A stretch of 64,000 bases of DNA from Quadrisphaera setariae (GCF_008041935.1 NZ_VKAC01000008.1:178977-242976), one strand, 5' to 3'. Shown: positions 25,786-39,143, numbered from the stretch's first letter. Notes: generated from the sequence alone by a model not told the origin. Translations and numbers: made by a program.

Positions 25786-26820
25786 TCAGCGGGCAGCTCT
25801 GAGCGCTCGCTCGAGGACGTCGACGACGTCACGCCCCTGCTCGCCCGTCACCGCCACCGGCGGGCCGCCCCGCAGCGACGCCGCGAGGCTCGCGTACAGC
25901 TCCGCCCCCAGCCGGCCGGGCGGCTCCAGGCCGTCGTGGACGACGACGACGGCGCCGTCGGCGTCGCGCACCACCACCGACGTGCCGTCCTCACTGGTGA
26001 TGTCACCGCGCTCCCCCACCACGCGGAACCGCGGCGCCGGGTGCTCGGCCCTGCGGTGCACGTCGATGCGCGCGCTGGAGCCGCCGTCGCGCTGCCCGAA
26101 GGCCAGGTGGATGCGCAGGTGGTCCTCGACGGCCGACCCGGGCGGGCGGTGCGCGGTGCCCGTCACCGCCGTCGGCGTGCCGAGCAGCTGCAGCACCTGG
26201 TCGACCGGGTGCGGCCCGATGAGCCATCCCGCTCCCCCGCCGGTGTCCGCCTCCTCGGTCCAGGTGGCGATGTCGGAGCCCGTGTGCGGCGTGCCGTCCC
26301 CGGCCGTGCGGTAGCGACCTGCGTGGCTGCGGTGGACCTCCACGCGGCGCACCGGCCCGACGGCGCCCTCGTGCACGAGCCGCAGCACCTGCTGGAAGTC
26401 CGGTTCCCACCGCCGCTGCTGGTGCACCGACAGCTGCCGTCCAGCGGCGCGCGCGGCGGAGAGCATGGCGTCGGCGTCGGCGACCGAGGTCGCCATCGGC
26501 TTCTCCACGTGCACGTGGCGTCCCGCTCGGAGCGCCCCGATCACGACGTCGCGGTGCAGGTGGTGCGGCAGGGCGACGACGACGAGCTCCACGCCCCCGT
26601 CGTCCCCGGCGCTGCCCGCGACGAGCTCGCGCCAGTCGGTGTGGGCCCGCGCGCCGAAGCGGTCGGCCGCTGTCGCCGCACGGGCGGGGTCGGCGTCGCA
26701 GACGGCGACCAGGTCGAGCTGCCCCGCCGCTCGCGCCGGCACGAGGTTCTGCTCCGCGTGGTAGTACCAGCCGCTGTTGCCGAGGCCGACCAGGCCGACC
26801 CTCACGGGCGTCACCGCCAC
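25786..26820 (-). CDS. Gfo/Idh/MocA family oxidoreductase (1)
   Basis: This 344-residue NAD(P)-dependent sugar or cyclitol dehydrogenase has the Rossmann motif VGLVGLGNSGWYYHAE at the N-terminus, the catalytic-lysine HVHVEKPMATS near residue 95-105, and a C-terminal GFO_IDH_MocA domain including IGPHPVDQVLQLLG. It is the last gene of the locus B operon and overlaps the second dehydrogenase by 10 bases. Two family members in tandem often catalyse oxidation and later reduction of one sugar derivative through a 3-keto intermediate; that is inference here. Confidence 0.88.
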   Translation of the reverse strand: MAVTPVRVGLVGLGNSGWYYHAEQNLVPARAAGQLDLVAVCDADPARAATAADRFGARAHTDWRELVAGSAGDDGGVELVVVALPHHLHRDVVIGALRAGRHVHVEKPMATSVADADAMLSAARAAGRQLSVHQQRRWEPDFQQVLRLVHEGAVGPVRRVEVHRSHAGRYRTAGDGTPHTGSDIATWTEEADTGGGAGWLIGPHPVDQVLQLLGTPTAVTGTAHRPPGSAVEDHLRIHLAFGQRDGGSSARIDVHRRAEHPAPRFRVVGERGDITSEDGTSVVVRDADGAVVVVHDGLEPPGRLGAELYASLAASLRGGPPVAVTGEQGRDVVDVLERALRAAR

Positions 26821-27890
26821 ACCGCCCCGGGGCCCGCGAGCGCCTCGCCGCCGAGCGCCTCGGTGACGTCGACCGCGGTGCCGCCGCGTGACGCCGACAG
26901 GTACGCGGCGTCCATGATCCCCATGGTCCTGAGGTTGTCGCGGCCGCTGTGCGCAGGCTCCACCCCGGCGTCGAGGGCGTCCAGCAGCGCCGCGGTGCTG
27001 CTGCCGTAGGAGAGGTGTGCCCGAGTGACGGGACCGGCGTCGACGAAGGACGACGACCTCACCTCACCTCCGCGCAGCTGGAGCTGGCCGGACGCCGGAC
27101 CTGCCATGGGGTGCTCGCGGGAGGTGCGGGCGCTGCCGTGCTCGCCGTCGGCGCGCAGCTGCTGGGTGGGCAGGCCGCGGGCGCGCCAGGACGACGTCAT
27201 GGTCGCGACCAGACCGTCGTCGAAGGAGACCAGCAGCGCCGCCAGCTGCTCCCCCGGCAGGCCGGAGGCCGGGTCGCGGCGGGTCAGCGCGCTGACGGTG
27301 CGCGGCGGGCTGGGCGCCAGCCACTGCAGCCTGTCGATGAGGTGGACGCTGAAGATCGCCATCTCCAGGCGCTCCTGCTCCGCCCGCCACACGCCGGGCG
27401 CCTGCGGTCGGTCCTGGAAGGAGCGGTGCTCCAGGAGGTGCAGGGGGCCCAGCTCCTCGGCGCGCAGCGCAGCGGCGAGCCAGGCCTGCTCCGGGTACCA
27501 GCGGAAGTTCTGGCTCACCGCGAGCGGCACGCGGGCGGCCTCGGCGCGGCGGACGAGCTCCGCGGCGTGCGCGCCGCTGCCGGCGAACGGCTTCTCCACG
27601 AGCAGCGCGACGCCCCGGTCCAGGGCGGGGTCGACCACCTCGTCGCGCACGGCGGGCGGCGTCAAGACCAGCAGGACGTCGACGCCGGCGCCGCCGCCCG
27701 CGCGGTCGAGCAGGTCCTCGACGGATGCGAACGGCTCCACGCCCGGGTGCTGCGCGGCGAACGCCTCGCGGGCAGCGGGGTCCGGGTCGCACACCGCCAC
27801 CACGTCGGCACGGCCGCCGCAGACGGCGGCGATCCCCGCCGCGTGCTGGCGGGCCACCCACCCTGCGCCGACCAGCCCGACGCGCCTCAC
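26811..27890 (-). CDS. Gfo/Idh/MocA family oxidoreductase (2)
   Basis: This 359-residue dehydrogenase has VGLVGAGWVARQHAAGI at the dinucleotide fold, ALLVEKPFAGS with the catalytic Lys, and the histidine-containing IFSVHLIDRLQWL in the C-terminal domain. The GTG at 27890 overlaps the stop of the CaiE-like gene (GTGA). It is distinct enough from its tandem neighbour to be an older duplication with a different substrate or step. It acts in the cytosol on a sugar, inositol or their acids. Confidence 0.88.
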   Translation of the reverse strand: MRRVGLVGAGWVARQHAAGIAAVCGGRADVVAVCDPDPAAREAFAAQHPGVEPFASVEDLLDRAGGGAGVDVLLVLTPPAVRDEVVDPALDRGVALLVEKPFAGSGAHAAELVRRAEAARVPLAVSQNFRWYPEQAWLAAALRAEELGPLHLLEHRSFQDRPQAPGVWRAEQERLEMAIFSVHLIDRLQWLAPSPPRTVSALTRRDPASGLPGEQLAALLVSFDDGLVATMTSSWRARGLPTQQLRADGEHGSARTSREHPMAGPASGQLQLRGGEVRSSSFVDAGPVTRAHLSYGSSTAALLDALDAGVEPAHSGRDNLRTMGIMDAAYLSASRGGTAVDVTEALGGEALAGPGAVWR

Positions 27891-28441
27891 GCCCCGTCTC
27901 CCGCGAGCTGCACCACCGCGGTGCGGTGCAGGTCGGTGAGCTCGACGTACGCCGGGCCGTTGGCGCGCACGCGCTCCAGCTCCGCCTCCGAGAGGTCGCG
28001 CAGCACGCGCCCCGGCACCCCCGCCACGAGCACGCGGTCGGGCACCAGGGCGCCCTCCTTCACCACCGCACCGGCGGCGACCAGCGCCTCGGCTCCGACC
28101 ACGGCGCCGGTGAGCACCACCGACGCCATGCCCACGAGCGCGCCGTCGCCGACGGTGCAGCCGTGCAGCACGGCGCGGTGGCCCACCGAGACGCGCTCCC
28201 CGACCTCGACACCGCCGTGCTCGTCGGCGTGCACCACGCAACCGTCCTGGAGGTTGCTGCCGCGCCCGATGCGGATCGGGGACCCGTCGGCGCGCAGCAC
28301 GCAGCCGTACCAGACGCTCGCCCCGGAAGCGACGTGCACGTCACCGACGAGCACAGCGGTGGGTGCCACCCAGGCGCCCTCGTCGACCACCGGCCCGCGG
28401 TCTCCCAGCGCGAGCAGCAGCGGCTTCGGAGCAGCGGTCAC
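27887..28441 (-). CDS. gamma-carbonic anhydrase / CaiE-like hexapeptide protein
   Basis: This 184-residue left-handed beta-helix protein is built from hexapeptide repeats. The three zinc-binding histidines of the gamma-carbonic anhydrase family are present: the His of QDGCVVHADEH and both of SVGHRAVLHGC. CaiE/PaaY-like members accompany CoA-linked pathways, and here the gene sits three genes after a CoA-transferase and two after a crotonase, as in carnitine-type operons. Its enzymatic role there (possibly thioesterase or carbonic anhydrase) is unsettled. It has GTGA overlaps with both neighbours. Confidence 0.85.
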   Translation of the reverse strand: MTAAPKPLLLALGDRGPVVDEGAWVAPTAVLVGDVHVASGASVWYGCVLRADGSPIRIGRGSNLQDGCVVHADEHGGVEVGERVSVGHRAVLHGCTVGDGALVGMASVVLTGAVVGAEALVAAGAVVKEGALVPDRVLVAGVPGRVLRDLSEAELERVRANGPAYVELTDLHRTAVVQLAGDGA

Positions 28442-38189: not shown

Positions 38190-38192
38190 GCG

Positions 38193-39143
38193 ATGGCGCT
38201 GCTGGTGAGGACGAGCGACGGACGGACCGACGGACGGGCGGGGGGCGAGCGGTGGCAGCTGAGGGACGGCGGGTCGGCCGTGGAGGCGCCGCCGCTGCAC
38301 GAGCTGCTCAGGGTGCCGCTGGACGAGGCCCGCGCGGTGCTGGCCCGGGCGCAGCGCGCCGGCGCGGCGGCTGACGCCGACGCCCCGCTGCTGGCCCCCG
38401 TCGACACCCAGGAGGTGTGGGCGGCCGGCGTCACCTACCTGCGCTCCCGCGACGGGCGCGCCGAGGAGTCCGACCACGCCGACGTCTACGACCTCGTCTA
38501 CGCCGCCGACCGCCCCGAGGTGTTCTTCAAGGCCACCGCGGCGCGGGTGGTCGGGCCGGGCGGTGCGGTGGGCGTGCGCGTCGACTCCGGCTGGGACGTG
38601 CCCGAGCCCGAGGTGGGCCTGGTGCTCAACAGCCGCGGCGAGCTGTTCGGCTACGTCCCCGGCGACGACGTCTCCAGCCGGACCATCGAGGGCGAGAACC
38701 CGCTGTACCTGCCGCAGGCGAAGGTCTACTCGCGCTCGTGCTCGCTCGGCCCTGGCGTGGTGCCCGTGTGGGACGCTCCGCAGGGGCCGCTCGCCGTGGC
38801 CGTGACCATCGAGCGCGGCGGCGCCACCGTGTACGAGGACGCGACGACGACGGCCTCGATGGCCCGCTCCTTCACCGAGCTGGCGGCGTGGCTCTTCGCC
38901 GGCCTCGACTTCCCCGACGGCGTCGTCCTGCTCACCGGCACCGGGCTCGTCCCGCCGCCGGAGGTGACGCTGCTGGAGGGCGACGTCGTCACGGTCAGGG
39001 TCGACGGGGTCGGCGAGCTCACCAACCCCGTCGTCCGGGTGGGCCGTCAGCCGGCGGCGCTGCGCACCGCGGCGGAGACCTCGCAGCTGGCGACGTCCTG
39101 GTCGCCGTCGACGAAGCCGGCGGCCTGGCCCTCGGCGCTCTGA
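38193..39143 (+). CDS. fumarylacetoacetate hydrolase family protein
   Basis: This 316-residue FAH-fold hydrolase/decarboxylase has metal ligands in VPEPEVGLVLN and GDDVSSRTIEGENPLYLPQA, plus LLTGTGLVPPPEVTLLEGD. Members cleave or hydrate 2-keto acids with a 3-deoxy or diketo carbon skeleton, often the last steps of sugar-acid or aromatic degradation. The final about 30 residues look unlike the family and run antisense into the convergent DUF4190 gene (97-base overlap), so the extension may be the result of stop-codon loss. It closes the rightward locus B transcript. Confidence 0.87.
   Translation: MALLVRTSDGRTDGRAGGERWQLRDGGSAVEAPPLHELLRVPLDEARAVLARAQRAGAAADADAPLLAPVDTQEVWAAGVTYLRSRDGRAEESDHADVYDLVYAADRPEVFFKATAARVVGPGGAVGVRVDSGWDVPEPEVGLVLNSRGELFGYVPGDDVSSRTIEGENPLYLPQAKVYSRSCSLGPGVVPVWDAPQGPLAVAVTIERGGATVYEDATTTASMARSFTELAAWLFAGLDFPDGVVLLTGTGLVPPPEVTLLEGDVVTVRVDGVGELTNPVVRVGRQPAALRTAAETSQLATSWSPSTKPAAWPSAL

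Follow-up and report, generated by a model that had tools for sequence, protein, structure and literature searches.

Sugar-acid catabolism and the chemistry of CoA esters are usually treated separately. The locus analysed here, a divergent unit of 14 genes that we denote locus B (positions 25786-39143) in a 64-kb stretch of Quadrisphaera setariae DNA (NZ_VKAC01000008.1:178977-242976; hereafter, the window), shares genes with described systems of both kinds. With the carnitine operon, caiTABCDE, it has in common a class III CoA-transferase (hereafter CaiB), a crotonase and a CaiE-like hexapeptide protein. The original prediction spoke of carnitine-type CoA chemistry, but this view is not supported: CaiB of locus B scores 338 bits with the succinate-glutarate CoA-transferase model (NF052585) versus 132 bits with that of carnitine CoA-transferase, both below the equivalog cut-offs (750 and 413 bits, respectively); the crotonase lacks the glutamate pair of the hydratases in 25 of 25 aligned sequences; uptake is of the ATP-binding cassette (ABC) sugar type; and genes of the CaiT, CaiA or CaiC type are absent from the 14. 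The top relative of CaiB in the PDB, and the best solved full-length one, is the succinate-hydroxymethylglutarate CoA-transferase SUGCT (9br6, 295 bits), with the catalytic aspartate kept. Methylmalonyl-CoA decarboxylase and some other crotonases have the same fold and also lack the canonical glutamate pair, but the locus B crotonase scores only 101 bits with the methylmalonyl-CoA decarboxylase model, against 232 bits (cut-off 272) with PRK06144, and has an invariant residue set of its own. On the sugar side, the Weimberg/Route II pathway of Herbaspirillum huttiense and archaea (PMC6336799) shares with this system an FAH-type 2-keto-3-deoxypentonate dehydratase (predicted in locus B), a lactonase-family gene and an aldehyde dehydrogenase of the type acting on 2-ketoglutarate semialdehyde (KGSA), which in relatives is putative; locus B differs from it by the presence of a CoA-transferase, a crotonase, RraA and HIBADH, and by the lack of an ILVD_EDD or enolase-type dehydratase on the window contig. 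The literature searched, mainly open-access and with long result lists viewed in part, yielded no description of the gene set or the pathway and no characterised operon with the same synteny; six names of sugar-acid CoA esters likewise found no mention in the open-access literature searched.

We propose that locus B is part of one conserved island that would import a sugar-derived acid or lactone and convert it, via CoA esters, to a 2-keto-3-deoxy-pentonate-type acid and further to 2-oxoglutarate. This is a tentative proposal, one that we hold to be somewhat short of probable, and it is built on sequence-level features, namely gene content, gene packing, conservation across phyla, an operator-like site, and the subfamilies and active sites of the enzymes.

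Layout and conservation of locus B

The window (75.8% GC) comes from a 4.9 Mb genome that, judged from its relatives, is actinobacterial; the closest at RraA 1 are Streptomyces sp. NP160 (95%) and an uncultured Pseudokineococcus (84%). As originally described, locus B is a divergent unit of 14 open frames, all of which fall within 25786-39143 and belong, according to Pfam, to the families first named:

25786..26820, minus strand: Gfo/Idh/MocA dehydrogenase A (PF01408/PF22725); accessory
26811..27890, minus strand: Gfo/Idh/MocA dehydrogenase B (PF01408/PF22725); accessory
27887..28441, minus strand: gamma-carbonic-anhydrase (gamma-CA)/PaaY/CaiE-like hexapeptide protein (NF050158, 144 bits); accessory, presumably in a thioesterase-type role
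28438..29325, minus strand: COG3618-type amidohydrolase (Amidohydro_2, PF04909, 128 bits); core, putative lactonase or hydrolase
29325..30119, minus strand: atypical crotonase (ECH_1, PF00378, 140 bits); core
30130..31314, minus strand: class III CoA-transferase, SUGCT-like, CaiB (CoA_transf_3, PF02515, 446 bits against a gathering score of 23.3); core
31332..32705, minus strand: CUT1 sugar-binding lipoprotein (SBP_bac_1, PF01547, 86 bits); core transport
32756..33676, minus strand: CUT1 permease B (BPD_transp_1, PF00528)
33673..34632, minus strand: CUT1 permease A (BPD_transp_1, PF00528)
34629..35516, minus strand: HIBADH-family beta-hydroxyacid dehydrogenase (NAD_binding_2/11, PF03446/PF14833); core
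35527..36294, minus strand: RraA-like protein 1 (RraA 1); core, putative metal-dependent lyase acting on a 2-oxo acid
36402..36413, minus strand: TTGTAGACAATA, putative GntR operator within the divergent promoter
36508..37203, plus strand: GntR/FCD regulator (PF00392 + PF07729); core
37200..38189, plus strand: D-2-hydroxyacid dehydrogenase, HADH (2-Hacid_dh, PF02826, 177 bits); tail
38193..39143, plus strand: FAH-family protein, predicted 2-keto-3-deoxy-D-pentonate dehydratase (FAA_hydrolase; 173 bits to 2q18); tail

The 11 minus-strand frames are packed, with spacings of -10 to +50 bp, in the order RraA, HIBADH, permease A, permease B, binding lipoprotein, CaiB, crotonase, amidohydrolase, gamma-CA-like protein and the two Gfo/Idh dehydrogenases; across a divergent interval of 213 bp lie GntR, HADH and FAH, spaced by -4 and +3 bp. 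The top PDB relative of the binding lipoprotein is YesO (115 bits). Orthologues of Gfo/Idh dehydrogenases A (69-87%) and B (74-88%) were found only in L014 and L027/L039, which are Pseudokineococcus-type loci.

Scanning of genome contigs with the RraA 1 protein alone yielded 22 loci, 16 of them actinobacterial (L014-L028 and L033), from 10 genera and with six from Kribbella. GntR, HIBADH, CaiB, the crotonase and the COG3618 amidohydrolase occur together in all 16 actinobacterial loci, and orthologous CUT1 permeases and binding protein are present in 15 (in L022, the binding protein is split into two frames and was scored as present); the exception is L033, with only distant permease-like genes nearby. 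The CoA genes, linked with RraA in every one of these 16 loci, belong to the unit, and the objection foreseen in the original prediction, that they might be unrelated to it, is not borne out. The same set, with a UgpC of its own and in a different gene order (GntR, HIBADH, amidohydrolase, RraA, binding protein, two permeases, UgpC, CoA transferase, enoyl-CoA hydratase), is found on a plasmid of the alphaproteobacterium Microvirga ossetica, from a legume nodule, where the identities to locus B are 57% for RraA (57-58% in Microvirga), 53% for CaiB, 37-41% for the crotonase, 29-35% for the permeases, 32% for HIBADH and 27% for the amidohydrolase; a second Microvirga plasmid repeats the pattern in a tblastn search. 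This linkage of enzymes, CoA genes and transporter, together with the overlapping genes and the common operator described below, bears out the view, already taken in the original prediction, of a single unit leading from uptake to central metabolism.

The six remaining loci (two from Chthonomonadia/Armatimonadetes and four unclassified; two are shorter than 6 kb) carry RraA, with 62-64% identity to RraA 1 in five and 59% across a fragment in the sixth; CaiB, the crotonase and the amidohydrolase were not seen in the available stretches. In L029-L032 and L034, a HIBADH-like gene or a partial match to one lies within 3.3 kb of RraA, and the stretches contain no CoA genes. The unit is rare in the sampled genomes, the source genome being counted each time: CaiB at E <= 1e-150 occurs in 2 of 394 class-sample and 5 of 297 order-sample genomes, and within the genus 2 of 6 genomes have RraA. 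Thus, by these comparisons, the unit is patchy in distribution yet kept together. The patchiness could be taken to mean that unrelated catabolic genes are neighbours by chance or through recent insertion, but the recurrence of the same set, reordered, in two phyla and the single operator core across the actinobacterial loci contradict this explanation, to which we give next to no credence.

When the window and L038 are taken together with the 16 actinobacterial loci, each of the 18 has the palindromic core TGTAGACA upstream of a core unit, and in 17 it falls within the intergenic region that separates GntR from the catabolic genes; in L026, the site overlaps a called gene start. Thirteen of the 18 match the extended form TTGTAGACAAT exactly. 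The 389,928 bp of these loci contain 21 TGTAGACA sites, all upstream of core units by coordinates; among them are a second site in L019, where RraA stands as a unit apart, and one in L025, where HIBADH does so. In the entire source genome, TTGTAGACAATA has a single site at up to one mismatch (the reversed control has none). Given this uniqueness and the conservation of the core, GntR is likely to be the local regulator of the island, with TTGTAGACAATA as its predicted binding site.

Enzyme subfamilies and a candidate route

By sequence, CaiB is nearest to the succinyl-CoA-dependent transferases of the SUGCT type, and Asp179, the catalytic aspartate by its position in FRC and SUGCT, is invariant in 20 of 20 aligned sequences (in the counts for CaiB, the hexapeptide protein, HIBADH, the amidohydrolase, FAH and HADH, same-genome repeats were dropped wherever a set contained them, namely L039=L027, L042=L016, L043=L024 and L045=L019, save that L043 was kept in the gamma-CA set). 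The AlphaFold 2 model of the crotonase has a pLDDT of 94.5. For the hexapeptide protein, the label 'CaiE-like' is weaker at the level of the subfamily than originally implied: the gamma carbonic anhydrase model scores highest, followed by PaaY (132 bits) and CaiE (123 of 305 bits), all below the curated cut-offs. His71, His88 and His93, presumably the metal ligands, are invariant in 7 of 7 sequences of this protein (L014 and L015 were dropped because the frame ran into the next gene). HIBADH retains Lys184, which we assume to be the catalytic lysine, in 21 of 21 sequences. In the COG3618 amidohydrolase, the HxH motif, His172 and Lys202 are invariant in 19 of 19 sequences, and the active-site aspartate is replaced by asparagine (Asn242) in all 19; the set of HxH, His and Asp is, we presume, that of the LigI/fuconolactonase type, and the score with the L-fuconolactonase model is 129 of 400 bits.

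The original prediction had missed the type of the FAH protein. It is nearest to the Sulfolobus 2-keto-3-deoxy-D-arabinonate dehydratase KdaD (2q18), and Glu109, Glu138, Glu140, Asp159 and Lys177 are invariant in 8 of 8 sequences spanning both FAH subfamilies; we take these residues to correspond to the specific glutamate, metal ligands and lysine of KdaD (Glu114, Glu143, Glu145, Asp164 and Lys182). In HADH, Arg246, Glu275 and His294, presumably the catalytic triad, are invariant in 8 of 8 sequences, and FAH and HADH are adjacent in all 8 distinct collected loci that have HADH. An aldehyde dehydrogenase follows FAH/HADH in 3 of the 4 loci with a long FAH, with models for KGSA/2,5-dioxovalerate dehydrogenase best or near-best, albeit below the cut-offs: 476 and 473 bits in L039, where the stretch ends within the gene, 95 bits in L043, and 92 bits in L033, where this model comes third after succinate semialdehyde dehydrogenase (SSADH; 98 bits) and HpaE (96 bits). 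Herbaspirillum enzymes of the FAH/MhpD superfamily convert D- and L-2-keto-3-deoxypentonate to KGSA, and a specific glutamate is described for the FAH-type 2-keto-3-deoxypentonate dehydratase (PMC6336799). The FAH protein of locus B is therefore predicted to be of this dehydratase type and, because it resembles KdaD and the FAH/HADH pairs of the relatives adjoin KGSA dehydrogenase-like genes, 2-oxoglutarate is the predicted end product of the pathway.

The route that we favour would start with CUT1-mediated uptake of a sugar-derived acid or lactone, which would be oxidised by HIBADH (and the Gfo/Idh dehydrogenases where present) and ring-opened by the COG3618 amidohydrolase to a hydroxy acid. 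CaiB would then transfer CoA from succinyl-CoA to this acid, and the atypical crotonase would act on the CoA ester to eliminate water (alternatively CO2 or a one-carbon branch), after which the gamma-CA/PaaY-like protein or the amidohydrolase would release the free acid. HADH would feed 2-keto-3-deoxypentonate to FAH for conversion to 2-oxoglutarate semialdehyde, and an aldehyde dehydrogenase would complete the route to 2-oxoglutarate, itself the source of succinyl-CoA for the CaiB step; RraA would provide a parallel exit through cleavage of a 2-oxo acid by a metal-dependent lyase. The rationale is that the core has no recognised sugar-acid dehydratase and the tail needs a 2-keto-3-deoxy acid, so that CaiB and the crotonase could be the source of that acid: since an aldonyl-CoA is a 3-hydroxyacyl-CoA, dehydration of which would give the 2-keto-3-deoxy acid, the crotonase could substitute for the absent enzyme. 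CoA transfer followed by dehydration appears to be the simplest way of giving both proteins a purpose. Least certain are the crotonase step, the release of the acid and the placement of RraA.

Contrary evidence and alternative routes

A considerable number of observations speak against this route, starting with the crotonase itself. Both positions of the hydratase glutamate pair (the second being read against 4zu2) are non-acidic not only in the 25 aligned sequences (of 27 collected, L016_2893 and L044_12049 were left out as non-orthologous) but also in all 23 of a second alignment that combines 21 of these with two from Microvirga; the invariant set in both alignments is Tyr86, Glu87, Thr141 and Asn144. 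Ordinary dehydration is therefore not the obvious reaction of this protein. Moreover, if dehydration already yields the keto acid, the HADH step has no place. Both HADH and HIBADH are better employed if the compound degraded is an isosaccharinate-type 2-C-hydroxymethyl acid, the hydroxymethyl group of which is oxidised by HIBADH (with an aldehyde dehydrogenase), so that CaiB makes a malonyl-CoA-like ester and the crotonase decarboxylates it in the manner of methylmalonyl-CoA decarboxylase; the resulting D-2-hydroxy-3-deoxypentonate would pass to 2-keto-3-deoxypentonate via HADH or a GlcD-type oxidase, and then to FAH. We regard this branched-acid scheme as doubtful. A GlcD-type oxidase (408 bits) is encoded in L019, where the stretches read gave no match for HADH or FAH, and L033 encodes a CitE/RipC-like lyase (106 of 375 bits).

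The tail is a further difficulty for the 2-oxoglutarate route. No aldehyde dehydrogenase follows FAH in the window; the one in locus A (see below) is SSADH-like, with 533 bits against 304-321 bits for the KGSA-type models. FAH/HADH is found in 5 of the 16 RraA-seeded actinobacterial loci as fetched, or 6 when the contig of L027 is read further (L039), which places the tail outside the minimal core, and the fetched flanks of the six Kribbella loci contain neither gene; the core may thus have another end point, such as pyruvate formed by RraA. This leads to the suggestion that the core alone is complete, with RraA as a class II pyruvate aldolase splitting a 2-keto-3-deoxy acid into pyruvate and an aldehyde, HIBADH, the iron-containing alcohol dehydrogenase (Fe-ADH) and the aldehyde dehydrogenase handling the latter, as in the GarL/GarR logic, CaiB and the crotonase acting upstream, and the FAH branch being optional. 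Such an arrangement accounts for the tail-less Kribbella loci, and is in line with RraA being, by the identities given above, among the most conserved core proteins and with the HIBADH-like genes or partial matches close to RraA in L029-L032 and L034. The residues of RraA 1 point both ways. Under our assumption that in the D-X20-R-D motif the aspartate stands 21 residues ahead of the arginine, the motif is incomplete, with serine in place of the aligned aldolase aspartate (3noj) in 29 of 29 aligned sequences (all those collected), and the score with the LigK model is far below the cut-off (60 of 304 bits). Arg147 and Asp148, in contrast, are invariant in these 29 and in all 21 of a second alignment (19 of the 29 and two from Microvirga), and align with Arg-123 and the metal-binding Asp-124 of the RraA-superfamily 4-hydroxy-4-methyl-2-oxoglutarate/4-carboxy-4-hydroxy-2-oxoadipate aldolase, in the description of which two motifs are mentioned (PMC5065237). 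Given also that this scheme leaves the CoA step without a purpose, we consider it unlikely.

Returning to the 2-oxoglutarate route, no locus B protein passes an NCBIfam equivalog cut-off that would name a defined substrate. Gfo/Idh, COG3618 and RraA proteins are related to LigC, LigI and LigK, which belong to the pathway of protocatechuate 4,5-cleavage, and the family-level matches to proteins of the 2-pyrone-4,6-dicarboxylate hydrolase and LigK types could indicate that the locus handles a pyrone or an aromatic-derived dicarboxylate. This is quite improbable, considering that the scores are far under the equivalog cut-offs, the transporter is of the CUT1 sugar type in 15 of the 16 loci, no ring-cleavage dioxygenase was found among the scanned proteins, and FAH matches a sugar-acid dehydratase.

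The Microvirga set presents problems of its own for the proposed route: its binding protein has no match to the locus B lipoprotein at E 1e-4, a HADH homologue (31%) is present with no FAH among the annotated neighbours, and the operator motif was not found in the GntR gaps. MR_MLE genes are located near the locus in Microvirga and in Streptomyces ODS25. The window contig carries neither ILVD_EDD nor MR_MLE genes (the UxaA/GarD type was not searched), which counts in favour of the route; the 2 and 4 respective matches in the genome are on other contigs, so that ordinary dehydratases might still serve. Finally, the 32 kb fetched for L063 contain a CaiB-crotonase pair, and neither RraA nor HIBADH nor the amidohydrolase.

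Extent of the island and its significance

In the window, at a distance of 5.7 kb from locus B, lies a second block, locus A (14406-20119):

14406..15212, minus strand: second crotonase, atypical type (PRK06144, 246 bits; 50% identical to the first crotonase)
15218..15904, minus strand: RraA-like protein 2 (PF03737)
15963..17345, minus strand: aldehyde dehydrogenase (SSADH-type model, 533 bits)
17345..18616, minus strand: Fe-ADH (PF00465, 166 bits)
18626-18639 and 18693-18706: two copies of GATCCGATCGGATC, predicted to serve locus A as an operator of its own, between Fe-ADH and RraA 3
18722..19423, plus strand: RraA-like protein 3 (37% identical to RraA 1)
19481..20119, plus strand: second GntR/FCD regulator, GntR2 (PF07729, 106 bits)

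In L039 (genome G007), the locus B genes are followed by GntR2 (an 85% orthologue), RraA 3, Fe-ADH, an aldehyde dehydrogenase, RraA 2 and crotonase 2, and then by a long FAH, a D-2-hydroxyacid dehydrogenase and another aldehyde dehydrogenase. In L015/L048 and L016/L042, Fe-ADH comes immediately after the gamma-CA gene, followed by RraA 2 (84% in L015/L048) and crotonase 2, with a 72% orthologue of the locus A aldehyde dehydrogenase in L042 as well. In L038, a 61% homologue of RraA 3 stands in for RraA 1, and copies or near-copies of GATCCGATCGGATC are found in the corresponding gap of L039 and L041. Because of this contiguity, complete in L039 and partial in L015/L048 and L016/L042, we assign locus A to the same system: judged from these gene orders, two blocks that lie apart in the window, each with its own predicted operator, form a single island in relatives. 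The boundaries originally drawn at 25786 and 39143 are thus too narrow, and the membership of locus A had been overlooked.

Several neighbourhoods of the unit deserve mention. In the Kribbella loci L021-L023, an alpha-L-rhamnosidase (a Pfam match in L021, with clustered homologues in L022 and L023) and a second CUT1 transporter adjoin the core at about 10.8-17.9 kb; in L017/L018, an FAD oxidoreductase and another transporter stand in that place. In L063 (G481:C19:315000-334999), a divergent CaiB (61%)-crotonase pair, accompanied by Fe-ADH, aldehyde dehydrogenase and a GntR2 homologue, adjoins a GH2 glycosidase, Gfo/Idh, AP_endonuc_2, two short-chain dehydrogenases/reductases and CUT1 permeases (56%); this variant may identify the sugar part of the pathway. 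Between loci A and B of the window (22048-24041, plus strand), a DhnA/LacD-type aldolase gene stands beside a 3-dehydroquinate synthase II-like gene, with 2-amino-3,7-dideoxy-D-threo-hept-6-ulosonate synthase and 3-dehydroquinate synthase II as top models and weaker scores for the BagB/FevI and BagC/FevH pair (3-amino-4-hydroxybenzoate), all below the cut-offs; this pair possibly belongs to secondary metabolism. An ordinary 5-oxoprolinase (PxpA and a fused PxpB-PxpC-like gene) is encoded at 53354-55796 (plus strand).

The complement of both loci invites a bolder version of the hypothesis, one that we consider rather unlikely as a whole: in a CoA-dependent dehydration of sugar acids, a succinyl-CoA:sugar-acid CoA-transferase and a glutamate-less crotonase would take over from the aldonate dehydratase of the iron-sulphur or enolase type and yield a 2-keto-3-deoxy acid, FAH and RraA would lead from this acid to 2-oxoglutarate or pyruvate, the module would have spread across phyla, and the three RraA and two crotonase copies would be tuned to isomers. 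Should the proposed route be correct, it would represent a new way of feeding sugar-derived acids into the tricarboxylic acid cycle, joining sugar ABC uptake, a CoA-transferase, a glutamate-less crotonase, a serine-variant RraA and a ketoglutarate tail. Because the predicted operator occurs at a single site, the inducing substrate can be screened for directly. Furthermore, the route would provide a function for a large RraA group (1208 relatives at E <= 1e-40, 120 of which were listed) that currently bears the label 'regulator of RNase E activity' or '4-hydroxy-4-methyl-2-oxoglutarate aldolase'.

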